Assembly: GCA_002838815.1 (NCBI GenBank)
Contig: LQGW01000025.1
Location: 1 to 57,313, forward strand
Reading direction: 5' to 3'
From: Clostridiaceae bacterium JG1575
GTDB lineage: Bacteria > Bacillota > Clostridia > Clostridiales > Clostridiaceae
Length of the DNA: 57,313 bases
Shown here: positions 258-45,895 of the stretch, in pieces
Position numbering within the stretch: position 1 is the stretch's first letter
Layout: the number at the start of each line of letters is the position of its first letter
Position numbers and translations under genes: made by a program
The notes under the pieces: generated by a model
What the model was told of the DNA's origin: nothing
What the model saw: only the letters and a program-made list of their open reading frames with translations
Databases searched by the model: none

Positions 258-1562
258 ATGAAACGCTTCGTTGTCCTGTCGCTGATACTCCTGTTGACCG
301 TGGGCTGCTCCGCCAACAGGCCCGTGTATCAAACGGAAAAGAGCAGCGCGAAAGCGACCAAGTCGATTCCAGAGCGAAACGATGGCGGGGGAAGCCTCTT
401 CATCAATCAGGCGCAGGTTCCAGCTTCGAACCTTTCGGACGAAGAGTCCGCAACGCCTGAACCTGAGGGGTCCCCACAAACCGTCAAAACCGTCCCGGAA
501 CCTTCAGTTTCGGGCAAAGCCCCAAAAACCATCTCCTTGGTGGGATTGACGCCCGCCAAAACCCAACCCCTTAGCCCGCTGCATCAGTCCATCATGGGCA
601 CCACCGCCTCCAAGCCCGCTTCAGACAAGGTTTCAGCTCATTCCATCTCGGAGTACTATCCCCTCCAAGAAGGGCGAATGATGGTTCGGGAAAATGAGGC
701 CGGGGAGCAGTCGGAGTACTTGATGCAGTACCTGCGAAAAGATCGCGCCTCCACCAAGGCACAGATTAAAATCCGTCAGCGCGACGCCGAGCAGATCTAC
801 GGCGTCTTTGTCTCAGATACAGAACTTTCAGAGCTTTACTTTAATTCCCCCGCCACCTATCGGGTCAACCTTTTGGGCACCAAGGAAAAAGAGCGCTTCA
901 CGCTCTTAAAGGCGCCCTTGGTGAAGGGCAATACCTGGACCTCGGCTGGAGTGAGCTTTGAAATCACCGCGGTGGATGTGCCTCGGCGCCTCTTTGGCGA
1001 AGTGAGGAACACCCTGCAGGTCGTTTATCGCTCCTCCGTCTACCAAACCACGCTGACCTTTGCAAAAGGTCTGGGTCTTGTTGAAGAAACCACCACGCGC
1101 TCGGACGGCACTCGAGGCACCAAGGATCAACTGGTGGAGTTCAAGCCGATGCCCCCAGACGCCTATGAGGTGTTCTTTTACTTGCCCAAGGACGCTACTC
1201 ACTTGGTGCCCATCCGGGCAAAATTGGCCTTCAAGGTCAACGAAGCCACCAAGGATGTGCTGGCTTCGGCCTATGGGCGCGCCGCCAAGGACAGCGGCCT
1301 GCCCGAAGTCTTAGGCGAAGAGGGGACCATCCATTACTTGGTGCGTGAGCGCGGCGCCATCCATGTGGATCTCAGCCGCGGCTTTTTAACCTTGATGAAT
1401 CGCGAGCCGGCCTTAGAAAACATCCGCATTCAGGCCCTGGTGGATACGCTTTGCCAGTATTACGGCGTGGAGGCGGTGCGCTTGACCATTGAGGATCAGC
1501 GCTACGAATCCAAGAACCGCACCATCTCCCCGGGAGACCTTCTAAAGCCTGAGCGGCCATAG
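258..1562 (+). CDS. GerMN-domain lipoprotein
   Basis: Predicted secreted lipoprotein of 434 residues. The start at 258 follows an AAGG-type ribosome site and gives a clean lipoprotein signal (MKRFVVLSLILLLTVGCSAN) with the lipobox Cys near residue 17; an in-frame start at 234 would bury the signal. Residues about 20-130 are Ser/Pro/Thr-rich linker. A beta-rich middle part follows, and the last ~110 residues resemble a GerMN domain (VPIRAKLAFKV, VHVDLSRGF-like core IHVDLSRGF, closing VRLTIEDQR). In spore formers GerM-type proteins serve sporulation or germination, but the domain also occurs in non-sporulating bacteria on cell-envelope lipoproteins, so a general envelope role is the safer inference. 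It is a single-gene unit ended by a terminator at 1590. Confidence 0.8.
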   Translation: MKRFVVLSLILLLTVGCSANRPVYQTEKSSAKATKSIPERNDGGGSLFINQAQVPASNLSDEESATPEPEGSPQTVKTVPEPSVSGKAPKTISLVGLTPAKTQPLSPLHQSIMGTTASKPASDKVSAHSISEYYPLQEGRMMVRENEAGEQSEYLMQYLRKDRASTKAQIKIRQRDAEQIYGVFVSDTELSELYFNSPATYRVNLLGTKEKERFTLLKAPLVKGNTWTSAGVSFEITAVDVPRRLFGEVRNTLQVVYRSSVYQTTLTFAKGLGLVEETTTRSDGTRGTKDQLVEFKPMPPDAYEVFFYLPKDATHLVPIRAKLAFKVNEATKDVLASAYGRAAKDSGLPEVLGEEGTIHYLVRERGAIHVDLSRGFLTLMNREPALENIRIQALVDTLCQYYGVEAVRLTIEDQRYESKNRTISPGDLLKPERP

Positions 1563-1589
1563 AATAGAGGGTCGAGCCTAAGGGACAAT

Positions 1590-1636
1590 GCCCCGCTTTA
1601 GAGCTTTAATGCTCTTTGGCGGGGCTTTTGATTTTT
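1590..1636 (+). terminator. Intrinsic terminator after the GerMN lipoprotein
   Basis: Nested hairpin: GCCCCGC (1590-1596) pairs with GCGGGGC (1619-1625) and an inner GAGC/GCTC stem is present, followed by TTTTGATTTTT. Confidence 0.85.
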
Positions 1637-1716
1637 CTAAGAAGAAGGACCTCCCAAGGACTCATGAATGCTTTGGCCCTCTTTTCCAAGGGGCGCAGCA
1701 GCGGGACCGGCTGATG

Positions 1717-1722
1717 TATAAT
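1717..1722 (+). promoter_or_regulatory. Probable -10 element for the DUF4011 helicase gene
   Basis: TATAAT 47 bases ahead of the start codon at 1769. No good -35 is visible at the expected distance. Confidence 0.55.
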
Positions 1723-1768
1723 AAGGAGGACGAGCGTTCCAAATACCCAATCTTAATGAGGTGCAACC

Positions 1769-4700
1769 ATGAACCTAAACCAACAAATTGCCGTGCATGT
1801 TTCGGTGGCCTCCCCCGTGGCGTTCTCTGGCGCCCCCAAAGCGTCCCCCCTCCTCCAGGAGTTGATGCTGGAGAATCTTTGCGAGGAGGATCTTTTGGAC
1901 TTGACGCTTTGCGTCGAGATTGAGCCTTTGGTGGCTGGGGGGTTCACTCAGTCCATTGGACGGCTGCCCGCCGGACGGACGCTGGAGATCCCAACGCAGG
2001 AGACGGCTCTTTTGCCAGACCCTTTTTTGGGGGAGACGGCGCCTTTTCAGGGGACGGTGCGAATCCGCATCACAGATTCTAAGGGAGAGGCGCTGGAGGA
2101 GCGCTCCTTTACGGGGATCCCCTATGAATACCTCCCTGGGGATCGATTGCACCAAGAGGATCTGGTTTCTTTCATCCTCCCGTCCGCCGAGGTCTTGGCG
2201 CCCCTTTTGGCCCAAGCAAAAGGGAGCGTTCGGGTCAGCGGGTCCAAAGACGCTGAGAATCTTGAATTCCCATCCCCTGAGGAGCGCATGAACCTTGCGG
2301 CGGCTCTTTACGCGGCCTTGGCCCAAGAGGGGATTCGCCTTGTGCCAAGAGCGCCCGAGCAGGACTTTGGGCGAATCCGTCCCGTCGATGAGGTGCTGCG
2401 GGATCATCGGGCCACGGATCGGGAGATGGCGTTGACTTATGCGTCTCTTTTGGAGGCGGCGGGCCTTCGTCCCCTGATTGTTCACGCCCAGGAGACCACC
2501 CTTTGCGGCGTCTGGCTCACGGAGGATTCCTTTAGTACCTCCCGGGTGAGCGATGTCGCAGCCCTAACCAAGCGCAGCGCTGCCGGCCTGCAGCAGCTCT
2601 TGGTCGTGGATCCTTCGTTTTCTACGCTTATGCGAACCTTCACTCAGGCCATGACTCATGCGGCCCAGCGGCTGCAAAGCGGGGCCTTTGAAGGCGCCAT
2701 TGATGTGGCCAAGGCCCGTTGGATGGGCTATCTTCCCTTGCCCAAACGGCGTTGGACGGGGACCCACTGGGAGCTTGTGGACGAAGTGAAACCCCAAGAA
2801 GACGGCCAAATCCCTCAGCTCATATCCCTTGCGCAGGCCCCTATGGAGGGGACAACGGGGCTGCCCAAACAAAAGATCTGGGAGCGAAAACTTTTGGATT
2901 TGTCCCTACGCAACAGCCTTCTAAACTATAAGCGGGAACGAAACGCCATGGCACTCCTGCACAGCCCCAATGCGCCAATCCTTAGGTCCTTGGACGAGGG
3001 TGCAGCCTTTTCCATTCTTCCTCGACCGACGGATTGGGAGGGCTTAAAGACCCCTGAAGGAGCGGATTTCAGGCAGGGCGATTCGTTTCGCCGTTGGGCA
3101 GCCGAGGAGTTTAAAAATGGACGCCTCCTTGCGGACCTATCGGCTCAGGTGTTGGAGGAGCGAGGTCAAAAGCTGGTGAAAAGTGCTCGGACGAGCCTGG
3201 AGGAAACGGGCTCTTGCGCACTCTATTTGGCCTTTGGGCTTTTGCGCTGGTACGCCAAGGACGATGGGGAAACCCCGCACTATGCTCCCTTGGTTCTTCT
3301 GCCCGTGGATCTGGAAGCGGGCGCAAGGTTTCAGGGCTTTCGCCTGAAGGGACGCGAGGAGGACCCTCAGTTTAATACAACGCTTTTTGAAGGGCTCAAA
3401 AAAGAGTTTGGCATTGTGCTGCAAGGGGTGGATCCACTGCCTGAGGACGCAAACGGGGTGGATCTTTCGGCGGTTTTTGCCAAGGTGCGCCAAGGGGTCT
3501 TGCTGCAACCGGGCTGGGACGTTTTGGAAGAGGTGCATCTGGGCTTATTCTCCTTTGCGAAGTTTATGATGTGGGCGGATCTTTCGGAAAACTTGGAGAT
3601 CTTTCGACAAAACCCCTTGGTGGAGTCTTTGGTCCAAGGGCAACTGACGCAGGAGTTTCCCAAGGTCTCCAAAACGGCGCGTTTTTTGGAGGAAGAGGCT
3701 GGAGAACAAGAATTGATCTATCCGTTGAGCGCCGATGCCTCTCAAAGCCTTGCGGTGCTCGCCGCCGCCCGCGGGGCCAGCTTTGTTTTGCACGGACCTC
3801 CCGGCACGGGAAAAAGCCAAACCATCACCAACATCATCGCCAATGCCCTCATGCAGGATAAGAGGGTGCTTTTTGTGGCGCAAAAAATGGCGGCCTTAGA
3901 GGTGGTGCAAAAGCGCTTAAAGGATCTTGGGATCGGTTCATTTTGCCTGGAACTGCACGCCAAGGGGGCCAGCAGGCGCAGGGTGCTCGATCAGCTGGAA
4001 GAATCCATGCGCATCACGAAGGTGCCCCGAAAAAAGGAAGCCCCCAAAACCTTGGCGGCGTTGCAAGAGCTCAAGGAAGAGCTCAATGAGGAGATCCGGG
4101 CGCTGTACGACGCCGACGAATCGGGCTACAGCCTCTACGATTTGATCGTGGAGGAGGCCCTCACCAAGGACTTTCCTCGCTCCGTGGAGCCTTCCTCGGC
4201 CGTTGCTTTTACGGATCTTAAGAAAAAAGAAGACCTATTAAAAAATCTCACCGACCTTGGAGCCTACGCCGGGGGCCCCTACCGCAATCCCCTGCGCGGC
4301 ATCGGGCCGGCGATCTATCAGCCGGATTTGAAAGAGCGCATCGCGTCCTTGGTGGAGGAACCCCTCTTACGCATGGAAAAGGCGTTGATCCCACTCGTCC
4401 AAAAGGCGCCTTCCCTTGAACCCAAGTGTTTGGCCGAGGTGTTGGCGCTTCCGAAGCTCCAAGAGTACAGCCAGGCGCTTTATGCGCTCTTCCCAAACAT
4501 GCATTTTGTCGCTGGGGGGATGGCGCACTGGCCCCAGGCCCTGACGCAGGCCAAAGACCTCATGGACGACGCTGTGGCATTGGAGGGCTCTCTTTTGGCA
4601 AACTATCCCCGGGCGCTTTTGTCCGTGGATTCGCGCCGCGTGCGACGGGATCTGGACGCCTGGGAGAGCAAAACCGCCCTCTCCAAGCTTTTTCAGAAAA

Positions 4701-7441
4701 ATCCCGTGGAGCGGGAATTTCAAACCCTCCTCTCCGGAGAGAAGCTTACGGCCCCTGAGATTTTGGATCTTATGAGCCGTCTGGAGCAATTCAAAGAGGC
4801 TCAGGAGCGAGCCCGCAGCGCCCGCATGAGGCTCTCAGGCGCCTTTGGAGCGGAGATCCTTTCCGCCAAAGCACATGAGATGGCCGAGGCGGCTGATCTT
4901 TTGACGAAGCTTTTGACGGTCGCACCCTCTGAGGAAGCCTTGGAGGAATTGGACGAGGCCTTGCAAGACGATTCGAACGCAGACTTAAGGGCATCGTTGG
5001 AGCAGCTGCGCGTTTTGGGCGACGGCTATGGCACGGCGCTGCGCGCCTGGCTGAAGGACACTGCTTTTGAGGAGCGGGAACTAGAGGGACAAGGGCCGAT
5101 CCTAGAAGCCTTTTTGGAGCGCCTGCAGGAAATCAAGGGGCATCTTAGTTCCTTGAAGGACTGGTTGGCTTATCAAAAGGCGCGGGCGGAAGTTTTAGGG
5201 CAGGGACTTAGCGACTTTGCCGATGCCTACGATCAAGGGGAGGTCTCGGAGACCCAGATGAGCGTATTGTTCCGAAAGAGCGTTACGAAGGGCTTGCTGC
5301 GCCAACGCTTGGCAGCCCATCCGACCTTGGCCTCTTCTACGGGGGGGCAAAGCGAGCAAAAAGCCGCTCGCTTGAAGGAGCTCGCTGAGCAGGCGCAGCG
5401 GATTCATCGACTGGAGCTCTACGTTCATTTAGCGCAGAAGGTGCCAAACCTTGTGATGGAGGAGGACACCAGCAAGGAGCTTGGGGTCTTGCAGCGCGCC
5501 CTGCGCTCGGGGGGACGAGCCCTCTCCATTCGTTCACTCTTTGAAAAAACCGACCACCTGCTGCGCCGCATCGCCCCTTGTATGATGATGAGCCCGCAAA
5601 GCGTCGCGCAGTACCTCTCACCCCAGGCGGATCTCTTTGATTTGGTGATTTTCGACGAAGCCTCGCAGATGCCCACAGCGGAGGCGGTGGGCGCCTTGGG
5701 CCGTGCCAAGCAAGCCATCATTGTGGGGGATCCCAAACAACTGCCGCCCACGTCCTTTTTCGCGGCCCAGTCGGGAGAAGAAATGGAGGAGAGAGCGGAC
5801 TTGGACAGCATTCTGGAAGATGCCTTGGCGCTTTCCCTGCCCAACGGGTCTTTGTTGTGGCATTATCGCTCCCGTCACGAGAGCCTCATTGCGTATTCCA
5901 ACCGCGCCTTCTATAACGGCGAGCTTTACACCTATCCATCACCCGACGATCGGGTAAGCCGCGTGCATTATGTGGCCAGCGGCGGCGTCTATGAGCGCGG
6001 CCGGGACCGGGTCAACCGGGAGGAGGCTCGCGCCTTGGTGGAGGAAGTTGTGCGTCGCCTTGGGGAAGCGGACAATCCCCCCACCATGGGCATCGTCACT
6101 TTCAGCGTGGTGCAGCAGGCGCTCATCGAGCGCATTCTCCAGGAGACCTTGGCCAAAGACGAGGCACTGCGGCAAAAGCTGCTGGACCTCCCAGAGCCCC
6201 TTTTCATCAAAAACCTCGAAAACGTTCAGGGGGATGAGCGGGACATCATCCTCTTCTCGGTGGGCTATGGGCCCGATGAGAACGGTCAGCTGTTCATGAA
6301 CTTTGGCCCTTTGAATCAAGAGGGGGGCTGGCGGCGACTGAATGTTGCGGTCTCCCGGGCGCGTCAGGAGATGTGGGTGTTCACCTCCATCAATCCCGAC
6401 GAGTTTGCGGTGCCCCCGGGTGCGCCGCGGGGTGTACTCGCCTTGAAGGAATTCCTAAACTACGCCAAATCCTTTGGCCGGCGCACCACCTTACAAAAGG
6501 TGCAAGAGGAGTCCTCTCAGCTCCAAATAAGCAGCCTCCTAGCGGATCGCTTGCGGGCCAAGGGTTATCAAGTGGAAACCCAGGTGGGCACCTCGGAATT
6601 TCGCGTGGACCTCGCCTTGCTGGATCAGAAGGATCCAACCCGCTTTGCCCTGGGGGTTCAATGCGGGGGAGAAAGCTTTCAAAAATCCGGTTCGGCCTTG
6701 GATCGCGAGGTCCTTTCGCCGTCGGTACTGCGCGGCCTAGGCTGGCGCCTGGAGCGAGTGCACCCCATGGATTTTCTCGATGATGAGGAAGCCGTGGTGG
6801 CGCGCATCCACAACCGCATGAAGGAAGAGGAGACCCCCTCTTTGGGAGCGACTTTTGGAGAGGGGGATGCCAAAGCAGCGGGTCCACATCCCTACACCTT
6901 GGCGCACGTGGAGAACAGGAACTTCTCGGTGAATGATTTTTTGCAGGTGTCATCTGCCGCCGTTATCGGTCCAGATCTTATGAAGATCATTGAGGAAGAA
7001 GGCCCCATTTCCTTGAGGCTTTTGACCCGGCGCCTCCTTAGGGCCTATGGCCTCGAGAAGGCCCATGCCCCCATGCAAGAGCATGTGGAGCGCATCCTCA
7101 ATAAGTTCCGGCCCCACACCACCTTGGGGTTGGCCGGCCCCATTTATTGGAGCCAGACCCTTCGGCCTGAGAATGTGAAGGGCTTTCGACCCACCCTGCC
7201 GGAGGATGCGGAGCGGACCTTGGCGGACTTCGCTGCAGAGGAGCTTTATGCGGCTCTCTTCTATGTCTTGGAGCAGCCGCTGAGGGAGCGAGCCCTGACT
7301 TCAGCGTGGTCGAAGAGTCTTGAGGATCGTCCCTTGACGGTGGAGAAAGAGAAGATCCTTGAAGGGGTATTCCAACAAGCCCTGTTGCAGGGAACCGTGG
7401 TGCGGGATGCCTCGGGGCGGGTGACCCGAGGGTCGAGGTAA
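1769..7441 (+). CDS. DUF4011-type SF1 helicase with C-terminal nuclease-like domain (DUF3320 end)
   Basis: Giant 1890-residue cytoplasmic protein. Order: N-terminal beta-rich region, a transglutaminase/DUF4011-like part (WERKLLDLSLRNSLLNY near 370), then a split superfamily-1 helicase. Walker A GPPGTGKSQT lies at 676-685 (Lys682) and Walker B DLVIFDEASQ at 1291-1300, with a ~600-residue, largely helical insertion between them. GDPKQLPPT, VQGDERD and NVAVSRAR (about 1525) are the remaining SF1 motifs of the Upf1/Dna2-like kind. Residues about 1590-1690 look like a Vsr/REase-fold nuclease (FRVDLALLD), and the tail fits DUF3320. The start at 1769 has GAGGTG at 1757. Proteins of this architecture are widespread and some have been proposed or tested as antiviral factors; here it stands alone between its own promoter and htrA. 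Function in this host is inferred, not shown. Confidence 0.85.
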   Translation: MNLNQQIAVHVSVASPVAFSGAPKASPLLQELMLENLCEEDLLDLTLCVEIEPLVAGGFTQSIGRLPAGRTLEIPTQETALLPDPFLGETAPFQGTVRIRITDSKGEALEERSFTGIPYEYLPGDRLHQEDLVSFILPSAEVLAPLLAQAKGSVRVSGSKDAENLEFPSPEERMNLAAALYAALAQEGIRLVPRAPEQDFGRIRPVDEVLRDHRATDREMALTYASLLEAAGLRPLIVHAQETTLCGVWLTEDSFSTSRVSDVAALTKRSAAGLQQLLVVDPSFSTLMRTFTQAMTHAAQRLQSGAFEGAIDVAKARWMGYLPLPKRRWTGTHWELVDEVKPQEDGQIPQLISLAQAPMEGTTGLPKQKIWERKLLDLSLRNSLLNYKRERNAMALLHSPNAPILRSLDEGAAFSILPRPTDWEGLKTPEGADFRQGDSFRRWAAEEFKNGRLLADLSAQVLEERGQKLVKSARTSLEETGSCALYLAFGLLRWYAKDDGETPHYAPLVLLPVDLEAGARFQGFRLKGREEDPQFNTTLFEGLKKEFGIVLQGVDPLPEDANGVDLSAVFAKVRQGVLLQPGWDVLEEVHLGLFSFAKFMMWADLSENLEIFRQNPLVESLVQGQLTQEFPKVSKTARFLEEEAGEQELIYPLSADASQSLAVLAAARGASFVLHGPPGTGKSQTITNIIANALMQDKRVLFVAQKMAALEVVQKRLKDLGIGSFCLELHAKGASRRRVLDQLEESMRITKVPRKKEAPKTLAALQELKEELNEEIRALYDADESGYSLYDLIVEEALTKDFPRSVEPSSAVAFTDLKKKEDLLKNLTDLGAYAGGPYRNPLRGIGPAIYQPDLKERIASLVEEPLLRMEKALIPLVQKAPSLEPKCLAEVLALPKLQEYSQALYALFPNMHFVAGGMAHWPQALTQAKDLMDDAVALEGSLLANYPRALLSVDSRRVRRDLDAWESKTALSKLFQKNPVEREFQTLLSGEKLTAPEILDLMSRLEQFKEAQERARSARMRLSGAFGAEILSAKAHEMAEAADLLTKLLTVAPSEEALEELDEALQDDSNADLRASLEQLRVLGDGYGTALRAWLKDTAFEERELEGQGPILEAFLERLQEIKGHLSSLKDWLAYQKARAEVLGQGLSDFADAYDQGEVSETQMSVLFRKSVTKGLLRQRLAAHPTLASSTGGQSEQKAARLKELAEQAQRIHRLELYVHLAQKVPNLVMEEDTSKELGVLQRALRSGGRALSIRSLFEKTDHLLRRIAPCMMMSPQSVAQYLSPQADLFDLVIFDEASQMPTAEAVGALGRAKQAIIVGDPKQLPPTSFFAAQSGEEMEERADLDSILEDALALSLPNGSLLWHYRSRHESLIAYSNRAFYNGELYTYPSPDDRVSRVHYVASGGVYERGRDRVNREEARALVEEVVRRLGEADNPPTMGIVTFSVVQQALIERILQETLAKDEALRQKLLDLPEPLFIKNLENVQGDERDIILFSVGYGPDENGQLFMNFGPLNQEGGWRRLNVAVSRARQEMWVFTSINPDEFAVPPGAPRGVLALKEFLNYAKSFGRRTTLQKVQEESSQLQISSLLADRLRAKGYQVETQVGTSEFRVDLALLDQKDPTRFALGVQCGGESFQKSGSALDREVLSPSVLRGLGWRLERVHPMDFLDDEEAVVARIHNRMKEEETPSLGATFGEGDAKAAGPHPYTLAHVENRNFSVNDFLQVSSAAVIGPDLMKIIEEEGPISLRLLTRRLLRAYGLEKAHAPMQEHVERILNKFRPHTTLGLAGPIYWSQTLRPENVKGFRPTLPEDAERTLADFAAEELYAALFYVLEQPLRERALTSAWSKSLEDRPLTVEKEKILEGVFQQALLQGTVVRDASGRVTRGSR

Positions 7442-33223: not shown

Positions 33224-34411
33224 TTACAGGGCTTGTGGGGGCAGGGAATCTGTAAAGATGGGTTGGAGGCCTTTATGACCAAGGGCGACCACCATTTCCG
33301 CCACGGAGCGCTCATCCGCAGTCACAAACTGCTCTTCGCCCAAGGAGGCTTCGCGCTCCTGGGCCTTTTTTTCATCGGTGCTGTGACCGCCGATGTCGGT
33401 GCGTACGCCGGCCGAGACCTTCGTAACGGCGAGGCCCATCAGGGCATCGCGAAAAATCGGGCGTTCCCTAGAGGAGAGGGTGATGCCGGCATAAGGCAAA
33501 AAGAGGCGATCGGCGAGGAGAATCTGAAGGAGCATCCGCTCCGTCAGGGGATGAGGAATCAGCGCCTCTTGTCCTTTCAAGGGACGAATTCTAGGACAAG
33601 AGAGGCTGATTTCGCTTTGGGGGTACCGCTCTTGCAGCCCTTGGGCATGGAGGCCCACAGCCAGAGCATCCGCCATGGGATCGGCTAAGCCCAGTAAGGC
33701 ACCGAATCCGACCGCAGGAATGCCGGCGCGCAGGGCTCGCTCTTGAGTGTGGAAGCGGTAGGGAAAGCAGCGCTTGGCGCCGTAGGGGTGCATTTTTTGG
33801 TAGCGCGATGGCTGGTAGGTCTCTTGAAATACCGTGATGGAAGTGACGCCCAGTGCCGCCAAGGCGGCGTAGTCGGCACAATTCATGGGATAGACTTCCA
33901 GGCCAATGGTGGGAAAGTAGTTTCGGGCGAGTTTCACCGCTTCCGCAAGGTAGGGGAGGCCCACTTTGTCAGGGCTTTCTCCGGTTAACAGAAGAATTTC
34001 CTCCAGGCCGCTTTGGGCAATGGCTTCCATTTCCCGTTTCATCTGTGTTGGCTCAAGGCAAGCTCGGGCAATGGAGCGGTGGCGGCCAAAGCCGCAATAG
34101 ACACAGCCGTTCTCACAGTAGTTGGATAAATAAAGAGGGGTGAACAGGTGAACGCCGTTGCCGTGGTATTGGCGGGTGAGGCGCTGGGCCTTTTGCGCCA
34201 TCTCTTCTAAAAAAGGGATGGCGGCCGGGGAGAGCAGCGCGGCAAAGTCTTCCGGTGAAAGGGTCTCTTTTTGGAGCGCCGCGAGGACGTCTTCGCGCTG
34301 GTAGGTCGTCTTCGTCAAATCCGCCACACGGGCCAAAAGATCCGTGAGGGGGGCTCGGGGCAACTCTTCCATGTCCTCCTGGTGCGTCCAGATGTCGCAG
34401 GGTTTATTCAT
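33224..34411 (-). CDS. thiH: ThiH, 2-iminoacetate synthase (tyrosine lyase)
   Basis: 395-residue radical-SAM enzyme that cleaves tyrosine to 2-iminoacetate and p-cresol, giving the glycine-derived part of the thiamine thiazole. The radical-SAM cluster is Cys99, Cys103 and Cys106 in SNYCENGCVYCGFGR. VFQETYQPSRYQKMHPYGAK and SCPRIRP match ThiH. It lacks the extra C-terminal Cys cluster of HydG, which separates it from the homologue at 38.2 kb. The start overlaps the thiG end by eight bases; GAGGAG lies upstream. Last gene of thiS-thiF-thiG-thiH. Confidence 0.95.
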   Translation of the reverse strand: MNKPCDIWTHQEDMEELPRAPLTDLLARVADLTKTTYQREDVLAALQKETLSPEDFAALLSPAAIPFLEEMAQKAQRLTRQYHGNGVHLFTPLYLSNYCENGCVYCGFGRHRSIARACLEPTQMKREMEAIAQSGLEEILLLTGESPDKVGLPYLAEAVKLARNYFPTIGLEVYPMNCADYAALAALGVTSITVFQETYQPSRYQKMHPYGAKRCFPYRFHTQERALRAGIPAVGFGALLGLADPMADALAVGLHAQGLQERYPQSEISLSCPRIRPLKGQEALIPHPLTERMLLQILLADRLFLPYAGITLSSRERPIFRDALMGLAVTKVSAGVRTDIGGHSTDEKKAQEREASLGEEQFVTADERSVAEMVVALGHKGLQPIFTDSLPPQAL

Positions 34412-35210
34412 GACGTGGGGTCTCCTCGTACAAAAAATCCGTCAGGGGCGAGGAACTCTCGCCGCCTTGAGAAAGAATGCGTCCTGGGCCGGCCAAATGG
34501 GCCAGGCGTCCAGCTTGAACGGCCAAGGCGAAGGCCTCAGCCATACGGGGGATGTCCTGAGCGGTGGCAATGGCGGTGTTGCACATCACCGCATCCATGC
34601 CCAGCTCCATGGCCTCTGCCGCTTGCGAGGGGCGACCGATGCCCGCATCGACAATAATGGGCACCGAGAAGGCTGCGCGCAGCGCGAGGAGCTGTTCTCT
34701 AGTTTCTAAGCCTCGATTGGATCCGATGGGTGCAGCCAAGGGCATCAAGCAGATGGCCCCAGCCTCCAGTAGGGCGTGGGCATCCGCTACATCAGGCATC
34801 ATGTAAGGCATGACGCTGAAGCCATCCTCCGAGAGAAGACGTGTTGCGCGAATGGTTTCCGCATTGTCGGGCAGGAGGGTTCGGGTGTCCCCGATGAGCT
34901 CCAGTTTGATCAAATCGCCGCAGCCCAGCGCCCGACTCAGTCGGGCAATGCGTAGGGCCTCTTCAGCGCAGCGGGCTCCTGAGGTGTTGGGCAGGCGGGT
35001 GATGTGTTTTGGGATGTAGTCCAAAATATTTTCCTGAGCCCCGTGGGCGCGTCGCAGCGCCAAGGTGACGATCTCCACATCCGCCCGGTCAATGCAGGCA
35101 CGGATCAGCGCTAAGGAGGACTTTCCCGAGCCGAGAATGAGGCGGGAGGTAAAGCGGTGCTTGCCTAGGATTAGGGGATCATTGTCTGGGGTGGGGGTTG
35201 TTGGGTTCAT
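34404..35210 (-). CDS. thiG: ThiG, thiazole synthase
   Basis: 268-residue TIM-barrel enzyme that joins deoxyxylulose phosphate, iminoacetate from ThiH and sulfur from ThiS thiocarboxylate. Catalytic Lys102 is in GDLIKLELIGD; TSRLILGSGK begins the barrel, and PLAAPIGSNRGLE and DAGIGRPSQAAEAMELG form the phosphate-binding end. AAGGAGG lies eight bases before ATG 35210. The start lies inside the 3' end of thiF (32-base overlap), which implies tight coupling. Confidence 0.95.
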   Translation of the reverse strand: MNPTTPTPDNDPLILGKHRFTSRLILGSGKSSLALIRACIDRADVEIVTLALRRAHGAQENILDYIPKHITRLPNTSGARCAEEALRIARLSRALGCGDLIKLELIGDTRTLLPDNAETIRATRLLSEDGFSVMPYMMPDVADAHALLEAGAICLMPLAAPIGSNRGLETREQLLALRAAFSVPIIVDAGIGRPSQAAEAMELGMDAVMCNTAIATAQDIPRMAEAFALAVQAGRLAHLAGPGRILSQGGESSSPLTDFLYEETPRHE

Positions 35211-35916
35211 GACATGGGCCTCCTTGCATGAATTCGTTGGGGTCTTGCGTTGGGGCATCGACGGGCAGGCCAAGAAGCAGCTGCAGGGCACAAAGGGCTT
35301 GGGCCGCAGCGCAGGCTTGCACCCTCGGAGCATAAAGCGCTGCGTTTGGCGAAAGGTGGGAAACACCGTCGCCACAAAGGATCCAGCGGGGTCCCTTTTG
35401 GTGCACACGCAACTGGTTGAAGCTGGAGAGTCCGGCCATTCCGCTGGCGCTGATAAGGGGCGGCCCCTCCTGTGATAAGATCGTTTGCGCGATCCAGGCT
35501 TTGGTTTTCGCCTCATCCACGGCCTCAATGATGAGATCCACCCGGTCGAGGAGCCCCTCGAGCGCTCTGGGGGTTACCGAAGGGCAAAGCGTTAAGTCGC
35601 AGTCTGGATTTAGGGCCAAGAGCTCCTGGCTCAGCGCTTGGGTTTTCAGTTTGCCCACCGCCGCCCAACCGTAGCTTTGGCGGTGAAGATTCGTTTCATC
35701 CACCCGATCGGAGTCCGCCAGATAAAGGATGCGTACCCCTGAGCGCACAAGGGAGAGGGCGATGTGAGAGCCAAGGCCTCCAAGGCCGACGATCAGCACG
35801 CGAGAGCGGGCCAGGCGGGAAGCTGCTTTTCGAGGAATGCGCTGAAGGAGCCCTTGATAAAAGGGGGTGTTGAAAAGGCTCGCCAAGGCATCGCAATCAT
35901 TAACCGCCGCCGACAA
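35179..35916 (-). CDS. thiF: ThiF, ThiS adenylyltransferase
   Basis: 245-residue E1-like enzyme that adenylates the C-terminus of ThiS. The ATP loop is GLGGLGS at 44-50; DSDRVDETNLHRQ is the adenylation motif, and EAVDEAKTK follows. No CxxC zinc pair is visible, as in the short ThiF of Clostridia. The start is taken as TTG at 35916 within the thiS 3' end (17-base overlap), with GGAGGTGGTGAG nine bases upstream; no in-frame ATG exists nearby. Confidence 0.9.
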   Translation of the reverse strand: MSAAVNDCDALASLFNTPFYQGLLQRIPRKAASRLARSRVLIVGLGGLGSHIALSLVRSGVRILYLADSDRVDETNLHRQSYGWAAVGKLKTQALSQELLALNPDCDLTLCPSVTPRALEGLLDRVDLIIEAVDEAKTKAWIAQTILSQEGPPLISASGMAGLSSFNQLRVHQKGPRWILCGDGVSHLSPNAALYAPRVQACAAAQALCALQLLLGLPVDAPTQDPNEFMQGGPCHEPNNPHPRQ

Positions 35917-36094
35917 AGCTCACCACCTCCAAAACATCTTGCGCCAAGAGGACTTCTTCCTCCAGCTCCTGGTCTTTTAAAATCCGTCCGTTCTTTTCCA
36001 CCACGATGACGGAGCGATCGTACCCTTGCTCTTGCAAAAACTGTAAGAGCGGCAGGGGGCTTGCCAAGGGATACGCGACACCATTGCATTTCAT
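35900..36094 (-). CDS. thiS: ThiS, sulfur carrier protein
   Basis: 64-residue ubiquitin-fold carrier. The start at 36094 follows GGAGGTGA. It ends VVSFVGGG, providing the C-terminal Gly-Gly that ThiF adenylates and that carries the thiocarboxylate used by ThiG. The middle (VVVEKNGRILKDQ) matches ThiS. First gene of the operon, about 25 bases after a strong intrinsic terminator-like hairpin. Confidence 0.93.
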   Translation of the reverse strand: MKCNGVAYPLASPLPLLQFLQEQGYDRSVIVVEKNGRILKDQELEEEVLLAQDVLEVVSFVGGG

Positions 36095-36105
36095 AAACAC
36101 GTCAC

Positions 36106-36224: not shown

Positions 36225-36420
36225 AAAAAACCAAGGATTTTGAACGGTTCCCAAGAGTTTTGGGAGAAACGTTCAAAATAAGGGCCCTCCTAAACGGATC
36301 TTGCCGGTTGGCAAAGGAATTGCATCCAGAGCAATCGATCCGGGTATTTTTGCCCGTATGATGGGATCTTAAAGGGAAAATAACTTGTTCTTTCGCGCAA
36401 CCAGAACAAGCCCGGTGCTT
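36225..36420 (-). ncRNA. Candidate structured RNA ending in an intrinsic terminator
   Basis: Several short stems follow each other: CTTGTTCT/AGAACAAG (36384-36410), CGGGTA/TGCCCG (about 36350), ATTGC/GCAAT (about 36319-36335), TTGCC/GGCAA (36301-36313). The last hairpin, with arms TTTTGAACG and CGTTCAAAA (about 36238-36277), is followed on the minus strand by CCTTGGTTTTTTT, a terminator. No gene or known RNA family fits. The 5' end and promoter are not identified. Confidence 0.35.
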
Positions 36421-36814
36421 TTGTCAAAGGGTTGGCTCCTTCTTTGCCGGGGTTATTTGCTTTTGTAGGCTTGGGAGCTGGCTTATTTAGGCTCCTTTGG
36501 GATGCTGAGCCGAAGATCCACCTCTTCGGGTTGAGGCGCACAAGGCCCAGCTTCTTCCCCATGCGCTAACACGCAAAAGAAGGGAGGTCCATGAGCCCAG
36601 TTCCGTTGAACCAAATGTGGATCCGGGCGTTGGTCTGGTGGGTCATGCGCGCGAGCTTGGGCGGGCTTAGTGAGTCAAAGACGCTCCCCTTGGGGCCACC
36701 ATCGGCCAGGCCATTCTCTGATTTTGAGGTTTTCTCATAGTACGTGCCCTGTCGGGGGCGCTTAATGGCATGTAATATGAACATTAGGGCAAGAGTTTTG
36801 GTGTACCGAAAAGA
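36421..36814. other. Gap between thi and hyd operons
   Basis: No convincing gene. A short plus-strand frame from ATG 36591 to TAG 36740 (49 codons) follows AGGGAGGTCC and reads MSPVPLNQMWIRALVWW at its start; it matches nothing I recognise. The rest holds scattered short inverted repeats. Confidence 0.3.
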
Positions 36815-36843
36815 TTGTTAAACGAGAAACGAAGTGTTATAAT
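36815..36843 (+). promoter_or_regulatory. Promoter of the hydrogenase-maturation operon
   Basis: TTGTTA (36815-36820), 17-base spacer, TATAAT (36838-36843) with an extended TGT before it. Start of transcription is expected near 36850. Confidence 0.85.
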
Positions 36844-36849
36844 GAGCCC

Positions 36850-36955
36850 GAAAAAGACCTGAGCCCAAAGAAAAAGGGGAGCGCCCCTTGGTTCTGCGGA
36901 GAAGGTTTCAAGGGGATGTTCAGGGGAACCGGTCTTTTTAAAAGACTGGTTTTTT
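36850..36955 (+). promoter_or_regulatory. Leader with attenuator ahead of the hyd operon
   Basis: AACCGGTCTTTT (36927-36938) and AAAAGACTGGTT form a stem followed by T6: an intrinsic terminator 20 bases before the first gene. GGTCTTTTT (36931-36939) can instead pair with AAAAAGACC (36851-36859) at the very 5' end of the transcript, which would block the terminator. A central AAGGGG/CCCCTT hairpin (36874-36889) lies between. This is the layout of a riboswitch-type or protein-controlled leader; it matches no family I know. Confidence 0.6.
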
Positions 36956-36973
36956 GCATTAAGGAGGAGGAAA

Positions 36974-37240
36974 ATGAGTCAGCGTATCGCAACGCTTTCG
37001 ATTCTTGTGGCGGATCCCGAAGGGGCAAAAGCCGTCAATCAGTTGCTCCATGAGGCGGCTCCGGCCGTGTTGGGGCGCATGGGATTGCCTCGGGTGGCGC
37101 CGGGCCTATCGGTGATTTGTGTGGTCTTGGCGGCGCCCCAAGAAGCGATTGCCACCTTGTCCGGACGCTTGGGTCAGCTCAGCGGGGTTAGCGTCACGGC
37201 ATGTTATGCAAAGAAGGTGTTTGATGAACCCCTTCGATGA
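36974..37240 (+). CDS. TM1266-like [FeFe]-hydrogenase system regulator
   Basis: 88-residue ACT/NikR-C-like small protein. AAGGAGGAGG precedes the ATG. The opening IATLSILVADPEGAKAVNQL and the end VSVTACYAKKVF match the family annotated as iron-only hydrogenase system regulator, named after Thermotoga TM1266. Such proteins usually sit with hydE/hydG/hydF, as here. Whether it binds DNA is unclear: no helix-turn-helix is visible. The stop overlaps hydE by 17 bases. Confidence 0.85.
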   Translation: MSQRIATLSILVADPEGAKAVNQLLHEAAPAVLGRMGLPRVAPGLSVICVVLAAPQEAIATLSGRLGQLSGVSVTACYAKKVFDEPLR

Positions 37241-38261
37241 TCTGTTGGCGGGGCGCCCCTTGACCAGAGCAGGGTTTCTGACGCTCCTTCAAGGGCGAAA
37301 GCAAGAGTCTGTTCGACTGCGGCAGGAGGCCGGGGCTCGCGCTCGGGCGGTATTTGGCTCAAAGGTGTACCTTCGGGCCCTTCTGGAGATATCAAGCTAC
37401 TGCAAAAGGAATTGCTATTACTGCGGTCTGCGCTGCGACAATGCTCAGGCGCGTCGCTACCGTCTCACGAAGGATGAGATCCTTTCCCGAGCGAAATTCG
37501 CCTACGATCTGGGCTTTCGTACGGTGGTCCTGCAGGGTGGGGAGGATCCGGCGCTCACCGATGCCTTCTTGACGGACCTATTGAGCGAACTTCGCCCCTT
37601 GGTGCCCGACGCGGCGATCACCCTGAGCCTTGGGGAACGTTCGCCCTCTTCCTATGAAGCGCTTTATGCGGCGGGTGCGCGGCGCTATCTTTTGCGCCAT
37701 GAGACCCGGGATCCAGAGCACTACCAAAGGCTTCATCCCAAGGCGCAGCGCATCGAGTCGCGCCTGGAGTGCCTGCGTACCTTAAAGACCATCGGCTACC
37801 AAACGGGAGCGGGGATGATGGTGGGGAGCCCCGGACAGACCTTGGCGCACTTAGCCTTGGATCTGGCCTTTCTCCAAGAGCTTCGCCCCGAGATGGTGGG
37901 CATCGGGCCCTTCATCGCGCACCCACAGACTCCCTTGGCTGATTATGCCAATGGGTCGTTGGATTTGACGCTAGACCTCATTGCCATCACCCGGCTATTA
38001 TTGCCTTATGCGCTGATTCCTTCCACCACTGCCGTTGCCACCCTTGATGAGGCGGCGCGCTTTTCGGCCCTGCAAGCCGGCGCGAACGTCCTGATGCCCA
38101 ACGCTTCCTACGAAGAGCATAAAGCGGATTATAACATCTATCCTGGTAAAAAAGCCCAGGCACTGGAAGGAACCGATTCCCTAGAAGCCCTGGAGGCCGC
38201 CTTAACGCGGATCGGGGTTCATTCATCCATGGAAAGAGGCGATTATCATGACCACGTATAA
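37224..38261 (+). CDS. hydE: HydE, [FeFe]-hydrogenase maturation radical-SAM protein
   Basis: 345-residue radical-SAM enzyme acting on the di-iron precursor made by HydG, during assembly of the H-cluster. The radical-SAM cluster ligands are Cys60, Cys64 and Cys67 in SSYCKRNCYYCGLR; QGGEDPALTD, HETRDPEHYQRLHP and MMVGSPGQT follow the HydE/BioB-like barrel. The start at 37224 has AAGGTG upstream and overlaps the TM1266-like gene; an in-frame extension to 37119 lies in the previous gene and is rejected. Confidence 0.95.
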   Translation: MNPFDDLLAGRPLTRAGFLTLLQGRKQESVRLRQEAGARARAVFGSKVYLRALLEISSYCKRNCYYCGLRCDNAQARRYRLTKDEILSRAKFAYDLGFRTVVLQGGEDPALTDAFLTDLLSELRPLVPDAAITLSLGERSPSSYEALYAAGARRYLLRHETRDPEHYQRLHPKAQRIESRLECLRTLKTIGYQTGAGMMVGSPGQTLAHLALDLAFLQELRPEMVGIGPFIAHPQTPLADYANGSLDLTLDLIAITRLLLPYALIPSTTAVATLDEAARFSALQAGANVLMPNASYEEHKADYNIYPGKKAQALEGTDSLEALEAALTRIGVHSSMERGDYHDHV

Positions 38262-39666
38262 CCCCCAAAGCCGGAAGGCGGAGGAATTTATTCATCACGG
38301 AGAGATCCTGGCATCCATTGAAGCGGCCAAAGTAGAGCACGCACCGCAGGTGTATCAGGCGCTGATCGAAAAAGCCGGCGCCTGCAAAGGCTTAAGTCAT
38401 CGGGAGGCACTGGTGCTCTTGCATGCGTCCCAGCCTTGGGTGCGGGAGGCGGTTTTTCAAAAAGCCAAGGAAATCAAGGAGCGCTTCTACGGCAAACGCA
38501 TCGTGCTTTTTGCTCCCCTGTATCTCTCCAACTACTGCATCAACGGCTGCGTGTATTGTCCCTACCATGCTAAAAATAAAGTTATTGAGCGAAAAAAACT
38601 GACGCTGGACGAGGTTCGGGCGGAGGCCGTAGCGTTAATGGATCTTGGGCACAAGCGGTTGGCCTTGGAAATGGGGGAGGACCCGGTACAAAACACCATG
38701 GAGTATCTTTTGGATTGCATCCAAGCCATTTACGACATCCGTCACAAAAATGGGGTGATCCGCCGGGTCAATGTGAATATTGCCGCCACCACCGTGGAAA
38801 ACTACCGTAAGCTTCATGAGGCCGGCATCGGAACCTACATCCTCTTTCAGGAAACCTATCACAAGGAGAACTATGAAGCCCTGCATCCCACGGGCCCCAA
38901 ATCGGACTATGCCTACCATACACAAGCCATGGATCGTGCCATGGCGGGTGGTATTGATGATGTGGGCTGCGGGGTTCTGTTCGGTTTAAAGGATTATGAT
39001 TATGAGTTGGCCGGCCTTTTGATGCACGCAGAGCATTTGGAGGCGGTGTACCATGTGGGCCCCCATACCTTGAGCGTTCCAAGAATCTGCCCGGCTCAGG
39101 ACGTCTCGGTGTCAGATTTTGCCAACGCCTTGAGCGATGATCTTTTCGAATACATCGTGGCGCTTTTACGAATCAGCGTGCCGTATGCGGGCATCATCGT
39201 CTCCACCCGAGAGAGCCAAGAAAGCCGGGAGCGGGCCCTGGAGGTGGGCGTCAGCCAGATCAGCGGGGGATCCAAGACCACCGTGGGCGGCTATGCACAC
39301 CCAGAGGCGGCGAATGAGTCCGCGCAGTTTGACATCAGCGACCAGCGTTCCTTGGATGAGATTGTCCATTGGCTGCTGGCGCGCGAGCACATTCCGAGCT
39401 TTTGCACTGCGTGTTATCGACAGGGCCGTACGGGGGACCGATTTATGCAGCTCGTCAAATCGGGCAAGATTGGCAACATCTGCGGGTCCAATGCCTTGAT
39501 GACCTTAAAGGAGTACCTTGAGGATTACGCCTCGCAGCCCACACGGACCCTGGGGATGGCCGTCATCGACAAGGAACTTCAAGCGATGAATGGGTCGCCG
39601 TTGGCCCAAACGCTGAAAAAAAATCTAAAGGAAATTGAAGGAGGCCGCAGGGATCTGCGCTTTTAA
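38248..39666 (+). CDS. hydG: HydG, tyrosine lyase forming CO and CN for the H-cluster
   Basis: 472-residue radical-SAM enzyme. It cleaves tyrosine as ThiH does but continues to CO and cyanide on a second iron-sulfur site. The first cluster is Cys97, Cys101, Cys104 (SNYCINGCVYCPYH). The HydG-specific C-terminal cluster ligands are Cys386 and Cys389 (SFCTACYRQGRTGDRF) and Cys412 (GNICGSNAL). It overlaps hydE by 14 bases. It is distinguished from ThiH by this extension and the operon. Confidence 0.97.
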   Translation: MTTYNPQSRKAEEFIHHGEILASIEAAKVEHAPQVYQALIEKAGACKGLSHREALVLLHASQPWVREAVFQKAKEIKERFYGKRIVLFAPLYLSNYCINGCVYCPYHAKNKVIERKKLTLDEVRAEAVALMDLGHKRLALEMGEDPVQNTMEYLLDCIQAIYDIRHKNGVIRRVNVNIAATTVENYRKLHEAGIGTYILFQETYHKENYEALHPTGPKSDYAYHTQAMDRAMAGGIDDVGCGVLFGLKDYDYELAGLLMHAEHLEAVYHVGPHTLSVPRICPAQDVSVSDFANALSDDLFEYIVALLRISVPYAGIIVSTRESQESRERALEVGVSQISGGSKTTVGGYAHPEAANESAQFDISDQRSLDEIVHWLLAREHIPSFCTACYRQGRTGDRFMQLVKSGKIGNICGSNALMTLKEYLEDYASQPTRTLGMAVIDKELQAMNGSPLAQTLKKNLKEIEGGRRDLRF

Positions 39667-39701: not shown

Positions 39702-40916
39702 ATGATGGAAAAAACCCCTTCGGGTCTTCGGGCCCACATCGGATTTCTGGGCAGAACCAACGCCGGGAAATCCGCCCTGGTCAACGCATTGGCCGGCATT
39801 GAAGCCTCCTTGGTTTCGCCGCAGCCCGGCACCACCACCGATCCTGTACGCATCCCCATGGAATTTCCAGATCTGGGGGCGGTAACACTATTGGACACGG
39901 CGGGCTTGTTGGATGACACGCCCTTGGGGACGCTGCGGGAGGAGCGCACGCGGCAAGCGCTGCGCGAGCTGGATTTGGCGGTGATGTTGCTGACGTCTGC
40001 GGATTGGGCTAAGGAGGGAGAAATGGTCCAGCTGCTTCAAAAGGAGAACATCCCTTGTCTTTTTGTGGTGCCGCAGATGGACCTTCGCTCGCCCGCGCCC
40101 CTTTTGGCCAAGATCCGGGCTGAATTCCATGCCGAAGCAGTCCCTGTGAGCATTTACGACCCGGCATCCTTGGCGGCGCTTCGCGAGCGGATTCGAGAGT
40201 TTCTTCGGCCCGAGGAGCGCTGGATCACCAAGGGGATCGCCTCCGCCGACGATCTTGTGGTTCTCGTGATGCCTCAAGATGCCTCAGCCCCCAAGGGTCG
40301 GCTGATTTTGCCGCAGGTCCAGACGCTTCGGGAATTGTTGGACCGAGGAATCCCTGCGCTCTGCGTGACGCCACAGACCCTCATCAAGACTCTTGAGGCC
40401 CTGCGGGAGCCTCCGGAGGTGATCATCACGGACTCTCAGTGCTTTAACCAAGTCGCCCCTTTGGTTCCTTCAGGAACCAAGCTGACGAGCTTTAGCATTC
40501 TCTTTGCATCTTACAAGGGAGACGCCCAGGAACTCGCTCGTGGCGCCCGCATCCTCGCCACGTTAAAGGAATCCTCCCGCGTGCTCATTGCTGAAGCCTG
40601 CACCCATGCCCCCAAGGAAGAGGACATCGGCACCGTCAAGATCCCCGCGCTCCTTCGACAGCGCATCGGGTCGGGGCTCACCATCGATCACGTTCGGGGC
40701 AGCCAATGGCCGCACCCCTTGGAAGACTATGACCTTATCATCCAGTGCGGCAGCTGCATGTTCAACCGCGCTCATGTGCTTCACCGCATCCAGGAGGCTC
40801 GGCGGGCAAAGGTGCCCATCACCAACTACGGCATGGCGTTGGCTTACCTCACGGGCATCCTCGATCGGGTGGATTTGGGCGAGGGCACGGTGCCTCTCCC
40901 CGACGAAAAAGCATGA
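39702..40916 (+). CDS. hydF: HydF, GTPase scaffold for H-cluster assembly
   Basis: 404-residue GTPase that receives the di-iron subcluster and delivers it to apo-hydrogenase. P-loop GRTNAGKSALV is at about 17-27, switch I in QPGTTTDP and DTAGLLDD after it. The iron-sulfur ligands form the family pattern CxH...CxxC: Cys300 and His302 (EACTHAP), Cys349 and Cys352 (QCGSCMF). AAAGGAG precedes the ATG. Last gene of the operon; no hydrogenase structural gene (hydA) lies in the window. Confidence 0.96.
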   Translation: MMEKTPSGLRAHIGFLGRTNAGKSALVNALAGIEASLVSPQPGTTTDPVRIPMEFPDLGAVTLLDTAGLLDDTPLGTLREERTRQALRELDLAVMLLTSADWAKEGEMVQLLQKENIPCLFVVPQMDLRSPAPLLAKIRAEFHAEAVPVSIYDPASLAALRERIREFLRPEERWITKGIASADDLVVLVMPQDASAPKGRLILPQVQTLRELLDRGIPALCVTPQTLIKTLEALREPPEVIITDSQCFNQVAPLVPSGTKLTSFSILFASYKGDAQELARGARILATLKESSRVLIAEACTHAPKEEDIGTVKIPALLRQRIGSGLTIDHVRGSQWPHPLEDYDLIIQCGSCMFNRAHVLHRIQEARRAKVPITNYGMALAYLTGILDRVDLGEGTVPLPDEKA

Positions 40917-45370: not shown

Positions 45371-45895
45371 CTATTTCTCTTCGATGTCGATCTCGATGTC
45401 TTCTTCCACCAACTCCATGTCATCCTCATCGCTGTAGGCGTCTTCGAATTCATTGTAGGCGTTGGATACTTCGGCGAATTCCTCTTCGGAGAGGAAGGCC
45501 AGTTCGCCGTCTTCTCCATCGGCTCTCAGGGGAGTAACCGTTCCGTCGGCATTTTCTACGAGGACGTAGACGGATCCGTCGTATTCAAACTCATCGACCA
45601 CAGGGTATTCCTCGGTGGTTCCATCTTCATTTTCCATAACGACCACAGCGCCGTGATCTTCCTCTTCGCCATCCTCTTCCAAATCTTCGTCCAAGGTGAC
45701 TTCCTCAGCGGCTTCTTCAGCCTCTTTTTTGTTCTTGCAGCATTCGCCGTTGTGCTCGTGCTTATGTTCGCCACAGCATTCGCCGTCGTGCTCGTGCTTG
45801 TGTTCACCGCAGCAATGGTCTTTATGGGCTTCCTCGTGAGAGCAGCAGGATTCTTCCGCCTTCGCCTCTTCCGTGAATTTCTTCTCTTCGCTCAT
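45371..45895 (-). CDS. DUF1292 protein with Cys/His-rich metal-binding-like repeats
   Basis: 174-residue acidic cytoplasmic protein. Residues 17-53 contain four CC pairs (17-18, 28-29, 40-41, 52-53) and nine His, arranged in two near-exact copies of CCGEHKHEHDGE (28-39, 40-51), very like a metal-binding repeat. From about 80 on it is a DUF1292 domain (VVMENEDGTTEEYPVV, YVLVENADGTVTPLR), the compact domain found alone in many Bacillota, and it ends in an acidic tail. ACGGAGGGAT precedes the ATG; TATACT near 45930 is a possible -10. DUF1292 proteins have no assigned function; the added module suggests metal storage or sensing. Confidence 0.82.
   Translation of the reverse strand: MSEEKKFTEEAKAEESCCSHEEAHKDHCCGEHKHEHDGECCGEHKHEHNGECCKNKKEAEEAAEEVTLDEDLEEDGEEEDHGAVVVMENEDGTTEEYPVVDEFEYDGSVYVLVENADGTVTPLRADGEDGELAFLSEEEFAEVSNAYNEFEDAYSDEDDMELVEEDIEIDIEEK

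Follow-up and report, generated by a model that had tools for sequence, protein, structure and literature searches.

How the level of the HydE/HydF/HydG machinery is controlled is, to our knowledge, poorly understood, and proteins of the TM1266 family are annotated as putative regulators only, with a structure but without a function. In Clostridiaceae bacterium JG1575 (contig LQGW01000025.1), the genes TM1266, hydE, hydG and hydF follow each other in this order on the plus strand, and all four were confirmed by family models (Table 1). The whole stretch of DNA that was analyzed (57,313 nucleotides) is called the window here. The locus raises the question whether the leader of this operon is a regulatory RNA, and to what such an RNA might respond. 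Judged from sequence comparison, the leader very likely belongs to a widespread class of cis-regulatory RNAs outside Rfam that would control [FeFe]-hydrogenase maturation by transcription attenuation.

The hyd operon and its leader in the window

Promoter, leader and intrinsic terminator were found where the original prediction had placed them, by inspection of the sequence, by a promoter scan and in the minimum-energy fold (terminator at 36925-36955 here). The promoter is the sole sigma-70-like match within positions 36300-38000 (shuffles give 0.4). Its spacing predicts G36850 as transcription start, which leaves 124 nt in front of the ATG (36974). In the minimum-energy fold, the terminator has a stem of 13 bp (36925-36953), the right arm of which extends into the U-run. 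Its core has an energy of -11.1 kcal/mol in our own scan and was missed by a separate pattern scan.

Table 1. Positions of leader elements and genes of the hyd operon in the window
Feature	Position	Strand	Basis or remark
Sigma-70-type promoter TTGTTA-17-TATAAT, extended -10 TG	36815..36843	+	10/12 consensus matches
Antiterminator arm AAAAAGACC	36851..36859	+	Exact complement of GGTCTTTTT (36931-36939); last five bases shared with P1 5' strand
Conserved hairpin (putative sensor element)	36855..36908	+	R2 and R3 matches, minimum-energy fold, sequence-only alignment A6
P1 of hairpin	36855-36860/36903-36908	+	
CUGA of hairpin	36859-36862	+	
P2 of hairpin (CC/GG)	36864-36865 or 36865-36866 with 36898-36899	+	
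Internal loop of hairpin	AA 36867-36868, GC 36896-36897	+	
P3 of hairpin (AGAA/UUCU)	36869-36872/36892-36895	+	
AAGGGG-AGCG-CCCCUU hairpin, P3 extension	36874..36889	+	'Middle hairpin' of the original prediction
AAGG of hairpin	36902-36905	+	
P1 3' strand GGUUUC	36904..36909	+	Complementary to terminator-arm GGAACC (36925-36930); corresponds to AAGG-strand antiterminator of most relatives
Intrinsic terminator with U-run	36925..36955	+	Stem 36925-36937/36941-36953
Shine-Dalgarno AGGAGGAGG	36962..36970	+	Sequence; lies outside terminator
TM1266-family putative regulator of iron-only hydrogenase system, 88 aa	36974..37240	+	TIGR03959 78.2 bits (cut-off 60.8); PF21699
hydE	37224..38261	+	TIGR03956 419.9 bits; start codon chosen by us
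hydG	38248..39666	+	TIGR03955 793.7 bits
hydF	39702..40916	+	TIGR03918 463.7 bits

The complementarity of AAAAAGACC (36851-36859) to GGTCTTTTT in the left terminator arm (36931-36939), on which the proposed antiterminator was based, is exact. Of 5000 dinucleotide shuffles, 25 contained a Watson-Crick run of 9 bp between leader and left arm, and one contained such a run at the 5' end. When G-U pairs were allowed, pairing runs of at least 10 appeared in 1279 of 5000 shuffles, and 261 of 1000 shuffles sequestered the left arm to an equal extent. In view of these mixed results the complementarity in the window is suggestive when considered by itself, and the decision has to come from relatives. 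Taken alone, the sequence of the window leader makes it a plausible attenuator and nothing beyond that.

A close relative of the operon was not found, the best HydE identity among the loci matched being 54%. Neither in 225 genomes of the order nor in 391 of the class did any HydE other than the window's own match at E<=1e-110. The leader DNA matched nowhere but at itself in its own genome or genus, megablast of the leader against plasmids gave no match, and no TM1266 was detected in viral contigs.

Elsewhere in the window, thiS, thiF and thiH (family models) and a gene read by us as thiG-like constitute an operon that runs divergently from the hyd operon (33224-36103, minus strand); its ThiH is a paralogue of HydG. 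A DUF1292 protein (45371-45895, minus strand) has a Cys/His-rich front made up of repeats of the type CCGEHKHEH(D/N)GECC, which give it a metal-binding look. Finally, an 1890-aa protein (1769-7441, plus strand) combines DUF4011, AAA helicase and MTES_1575 nuclease domains in a defence-like make-up.

A conserved hairpin in leaders of maturation genes

Leaders of TM1266 and of further genes for [FeFe]-hydrogenase maturation contain a conserved hairpin of about 45 nt, which occurs in numerous genomes of the window's phylum and in two metagenome-assembled genomes (MAGs) of other phyla. The consensus of this hairpin reads P1-(C)CUGA-P2-[AA or GA]-P3-loop-[GA or GC]-P2'-AAGG-P1'. In the consensus of the broad covariance model R3, the two internal loops represent one CUGA/AAGG motif seen from opposite sides, which makes the hairpin pseudo-twofold.

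In the window's family, 206 genomes were searched, 125 of which had a TM1266 match, and 45 distinct TM1266 leaders were taken. A terminator ends 15-75 nt before the start codon in 37 of the 45, and 26 share a pattern in front of the terminator with the consensus AUCGUUCUGAA-N3-CAU-GA-GGGUUAGUCCC-AA-AUGA-AAGGCGA, on which RNAalifold predicts P1, P2 and P3. Alignment A1 comprises these 26 leaders, picked by sequence pattern without use of pairing. It contains double changes at four of 12 pairs, a number reached by one of 500 shuffles, and its covariation score is 0.171 compared to 0.125 in shuffles (none of 500 as high).

The sample was extended to the phylum in a search with the TM1266 protein of locus L064 (398 genomes, 192 with matches; 30 loci including the window's own), and 80 further leaders from 80 genomes were added. 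A hand-made fold descriptor, written with part of the leaders already in view, was matched by 69 of 192 leaders, the window's included, while ten shuffles gave a mean of 4.6 and a maximum of 7. Alignment A2 consists of 31 diverse cores that were picked by hand and do not include the window; its rows were chosen by the pairing descriptor, which favours pairing in its 67 double-change cells (24.4 when shuffled). Despite these strong pair counts, RNAalifold predicts no pairs on A2, probably because MAFFT misplaces by one column the rows with a different spacing before AAGG and because the short stems contribute little energy. The model built from A2, R2, gave a sense match in 30 of the 65 leaders not in A2 at E<=0.01 (35 at E<=0.05). 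Its one antisense match, L183, falls in the leader of a hydG that is transcribed divergently.

Alignment A3 contains 82 matches from 75 loci, the window's excluded. In this alignment, which was fitted to the structure, 197 double-change cells were counted, compared to 67.6 (sd 6.7) in shuffles (none of 500 as high). The number falls to 79 and 88 when the partner is slid by one column, and all four Watson-Crick types are present at each of the four P2 pairs. Two elements stand in tandem within one leader in three of the 80 leaders at E<=0.01 (L198, L201, L188 and others are examples of tandems) and in eight of 80 at E<=0.05, the second match of L211 being located at the gene start. Conserved leaders with compensatory pairs, the lack of which had been named as refuting the original prediction, were thus found by covariance models and in A1-A3. 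They support its proposal of a new regulatory RNA for H-cluster assembly; iron, SAM or redox state had been suggested there as possible signals.

No riboswitch family had been recognized in the leader, and the Rfam covariance scan was also without a match at gathering score. In the window and 41 loci, no Rfam 15 family exceeded its gathering score at the element, and the whole window had no Rfam match at that score. The five matches in the sampled loci all lie away from the element. A skipping-rope RNA (RF02924, 72 bits) is present in L094 (2435-2515, plus strand) about 220-300 nt upstream of TM1266; downstream of this RNA, the new element is matched weakly. In a spirochaete MAG (L067, 1987-2029, plus strand), R2 matches with 26.5 bits downstream of hydE.

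The window leader was kept out of every covariance model. R2 matched it at 36858-36905 with 11.0 bits (E=0.0034 in 201 nt) and R3 at 36852-36912 with 15.5 bits (E=0.00036 in 201 nt). Over the whole 57-kb window, the element ranks fourth with R2 (E=0.96). The window site is absent from the four matches up to E=10 that R3 gives in its own 2.4-Mb genome, and the narrow model R1, made for one subtype in the window's family, left the leader unmatched (2.4 bits). The window member is divergent, with only two pairs in P2 and an 18-nt insert in P3. Most members have a short loop at this place, and L153, L156 and L197 are also elongated. The AAGGGG/CCCCTT 'middle hairpin' that had been proposed as a ligand or protein site is indeed present at 36874-36889, but as an extension of P3 and not as a separate structure.

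The weak genome-wide score, the failure of R1, the two-pair P2 and an alternative pairing of CCCCUUGG with CAAGGGG would fit a lone attenuator in the window that resembles by chance a class which is real elsewhere. We consider this improbable, as the R3 match (E=0.00036) is at the expected place and strand. When R3 was applied to 34 TM1266 leaders of the phylum outside A3, it found 20 sense matches and one antisense match at E up to 1 (about 10.6 bits); with this 20:1 ratio the sense match of the window at the expected place is very probably real. The sequence-only alignment and the minimum-energy fold also agree with the class. The alignment, made of the window, L063, L064, L185, L193, L198 and L147, has an invariant CUG, the AA before P3, the C-GC ending P3 and the A-G of AAGG. 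P1 (ACCU/AGGU) and the AA/GC loop are common to the window and to L063 and L064, which lead the HydE matches when ranked by E-value. These two loci stem from Anaerolineaceae (Chloroflexota) and Tissierellia (Bacillota), respectively, and L123 from Neomarinimicrobiota; all three are MAGs. A terminator whose arm is complementary to a P1 strand follows the window element. A new attenuator class for H-cluster assembly is the most likely interpretation of the leader RNA.

Terminator coupling and predicted switching

A terminator was found between the A3 element and the gene in 62 of 71 leaders, compared to 12.3 in shuffles (three rounds). The P1 3' strand pairs with the terminator arm of its own leader with a score of 13.5, and with the arms of other leaders with 11.87 (sd 0.31, 200 permutations). 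For the P1 5' strand there is no family-wide enrichment (7.81 for the own arm and 7.67, sd 0.22, for others). High 5'-strand scores were obtained for L063 (17.0), L246 (16.0) and L064, L211 and L228 (13.5 each), a subgroup defined post hoc. A good match of the 5' strand to the terminator arm is present in the window, L063, L064 and a few others (L246, L211, L228). In the window both P1 strands pair with the terminator arm, namely AAAAAGACC with GGUCUUUUU and GGUUUC with GGAACC. The 37 leaders from the other HydE loci (L063-L134) mostly lack a descriptor match, and a terminator close to the gene is present in only nine of them.

A 45-aa ATG reading frame (36916-37053) crosses the terminator out of frame with TM1266, as might be expected if attenuation were coupled to ribosomes on a leader peptide. 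This reading, or that of a small RNA merely ending at the terminator, is very improbable: the conserved hairpin lies upstream of the frame, and the terminator recurs between element and gene in the family as counted above.

Minimum-energy folds (ViennaRNA) were computed for growing transcripts starting at 36850. The fold of 36850-36912 is the consensus hairpin of the family (-21.3 kcal/mol), and the same hairpin is obtained at end 36920. At end 36930 a different fold is the minimum (-24.5). With ends 36936-36948 the antiterminator, formed by 36851-36859 and the left arm, is the minimum (pair probability 0.96-0.996); at ends 36939-36945 it reaches -34.1 and -34.8, compared to -21.3 for the conserved hairpin alone. 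From end 36951 onwards the terminator is the minimum-energy structure, with -39.0 at 36957. The free minimum up to 36957 pairs CCCCUUGG with CAAGGGG (-39.0, compared to -35.8 for element plus terminator). At ends 36960-36966 the minimum combines hairpin and terminator (-39.3 to -40.0), and from end 36969 a different upstream fold comes back as minimum.

By sequence and energy, an alternative pairing that excludes the terminator is therefore present in the window leader. The claim of mutually exclusive terminator and antiterminator stands on both counts, with one change: the conserved hairpin has to be added, and three structures compete. As the 5' arm AAAAAGACC overlaps the P1 5' strand, hairpin, antiterminator and terminator are mutually exclusive. 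From the fold energies, a closed hairpin should favour the terminator and a loose hairpin read-through.

In the mechanism which we propose, the nascent RNA would first form the hairpin with its two GA/AA-type internal loops (P1-CUGA-P2-AA-P3-GC-P2'-AAGG-P1'). An effector that holds it closed would keep the terminator arm free, so that the terminator forms and TM1266-hydE-hydG-hydF would remain untranscribed. Without effector, the P1 strands (in the window chiefly AAAAAGACC) would pair with the left terminator arm and polymerase would read through. Parts, conserved fold, covariation, terminators, P1 complementarity and gene set of the class come from sequence and comparison. We infer that the switch acts in vivo, that it is turned OFF by a hairpin-stabilizing effector, and that it serves as feedback from H-cluster assembly.

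Gene set, candidate effectors and related systems

R3 was run with the stricter filters of Infernal on 59 genomes picked for TM1266; a match at E<=0.05 was found in 47 and none in 12. Matches at E<=0.001 numbered 36 and are located as follows: (i) 30 before TM1266; (ii) three before hydG; (iii) two before an SsuC-like permease; (iv) one at a contig end behind hydA. Many of the 30 TM1266 sites and the hydG site of L183 were part of the training set, and the other five sites are outside it. The 31 matches with 0.001<E<=0.05 include 11 before TM1266 by position, six in other related places and 11 that are chance-like; two matches in G038 and one behind TM1266 in G956 were left out of this sorting. 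The weaker related sites precede hydG (L286, and G026 = L011, which belonged to the training set), hydE (L291), hydA (L287) and a binding protein (L290). A further weaker match (L288) is at a contig end, its sequence continuing into the TM1266 contig of G845. The search of the hydG genomes described below added an element before hydF (L311; TIGR03918 576.6 bits). In G829 and G611, TM1266 and the next gene hydG each have their own element with a hairpin behind it; hydG of G611, truncated at the locus end, does not reach the cut-off for the full-length gene.

Transporter genes also follow the element. It precedes SsuC/TauC-like permeases in L282 (G740) and L272 (G006), both above the Pfam cut-off for BPD_transp_1 and below the NCBIfam equivalog cut-offs, and NMT1/SsuA-like binding proteins in L290 (G952) and L315 (G023). 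In L316 (G091, 1501-3045), it is followed by an ECF-type S component and then a HydE-like radical SAM gene, which is cut by the locus end and reaches 156.6 bits (HydE cut-off 254.6). Two of the four ABC-transporter matches and the ECF match have E values of only 0.016-0.022. The transporter sites hint at a small molecule that is imported under shared control. On our reading of the translation, a membrane gene after TM1266 in L281 resembles the S component of L316.

The R3 matches L283, L284, L285, L289 and L292-L298 were rejected since on our reading they lie in coding sequence, in repeats or far from related genes, and L313, L327, L328 and L329 likewise lie in coding sequence or repeats or have no related gene nearby. 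In L329 (G002, from 235), a repeat array of CCTGATT-GAGG-like units imitates the element, with no hyd gene recognized nearby. Quinolinate synthase was discarded as the downstream gene of L272, since this element, being encoded on the minus strand, points towards the ABC permease.

The class would act like a terminator-coupled riboswitch, and it could be either a riboswitch or a switch read by a protein. A tentative first candidate for the effector is the TM1266 protein with a bound ligand: loaded with a metal or an assembly product, it might bind the hairpin and repress its own operon and other hyd genes. Of 39 genomes in the window's family that match HydG at E<=1e-100, 25 have TM1266 above cut-off; the remaining 14 form the TM1266-free set and include G109 with a match below cut-off. 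At E<=0.01, an element at hyd genes was found in 12 of the 25 and in none of the 14 (hypergeometric p 0.0013, kinship ignored), the only raw match in the TM1266-free set being inside the coding sequence of another gene. A threshold of E<=0.05 adds two genomes with TM1266 (G023 and G091, before transporter genes) and one without (G002, the repeat array). This co-occurrence is partly built in, given that TM1266 is the gene led by the element in most genomes; also, the genera are not independent. Moreover, 13 of the 25 TM1266 genomes are without a match at E<=0.01, and with the limited sensitivity of the search 0/14 is no proof of absence.

The predicted structure of the window TM1266 (pLDDT 93.5) is closest to 2nzc, which is TM1266 itself, and to the nickel-binding domain of NikR, with ACT-type domains lower; this argues for the TM1266 candidate, as does the pseudo-twofold hairpin with its CUGA/AAGG motif occurring twice, as a dimer might read it. 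NikR carries a DNA-binding part besides its metal-binding domain. According to the model, TM1266 shares the fold of this regulatory domain; in contrast to NikR, the 88-aa protein is that domain alone and would act on something other than DNA. As the DNA-binding part is absent, an RNA target is attractive as an idea, not as a result.

A possible but somewhat less favoured effector is a metal or small molecule that relates to H-cluster supply and is bound by the hairpin directly, no protein being needed. Such a classical riboswitch would be consistent with the element standing before transporters (L282, L272, L290, L315, L316), with tandem copies in some leaders, and with the riboswitch-like terminator coupling via P1. 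However, about 45 nt is small for an aptamer, the element was not found at hyd genes in the 14 hydG genomes without TM1266, and three of the transporter matches have the modest E values given above. That the effector is something else is rather unlikely. As a speculative wider view, the element could be an H-cluster feedback RNA across the phylum and beyond, with TM1266 as a NikR-type sensor that grips the twofold hairpin in place of DNA; a single RNA-protein pair would then set the supply of maturases, hydrogenase and a precursor transporter.

Among the titles and abstracts listed, none connects TM1266, hydG or [FeFe] hydrogenase with an RNA of this kind, though an earlier description is possible, and no paper was found on TM1266 together with a riboswitch. 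Besides titles and abstracts, the literature covered consisted of passages of PMC2965389, PMC11109978, PMC8632094, PMC9481103 and PMC10418091. An element that links TM1266, maturases, hydrogenase and transporters provides a candidate regulon and a simple assay, i.e., binding of TM1266 or small molecules to the 45-nt RNA. Its outcome would tell what the signal is, might reveal an imported H-cluster precursor, and would provide a natural switch for strains that produce hydrogen.

With terminator-coupled riboswitches and related leaders (TPP, T-box) the class shares a structured 5' sensor, a P1 strand that competes with the terminator, a location before a biosynthesis operon and some tandems. It differs from them in its own fold and conserved bases, and it may need a protein. 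The L10 leader and the PyrR site are leader structures that are read by a protein and coupled to a terminator. They were the top matches below threshold for the leader of L058 (RF00557, 25.1 bits, and RF00515, 22 bits); as the gathering scores are 44 and 54, respectively, this leader is no member of either family, and the genes concerned are others. In PMC9481103, tandem Wco riboswitches are described before genes such as ferredoxin hydrogenase. Unlike the Moco/Wco riboswitch, to which no match at gathering score was obtained, the element described here has about 45 nt and is tied to TM1266 and the hyd maturation genes.
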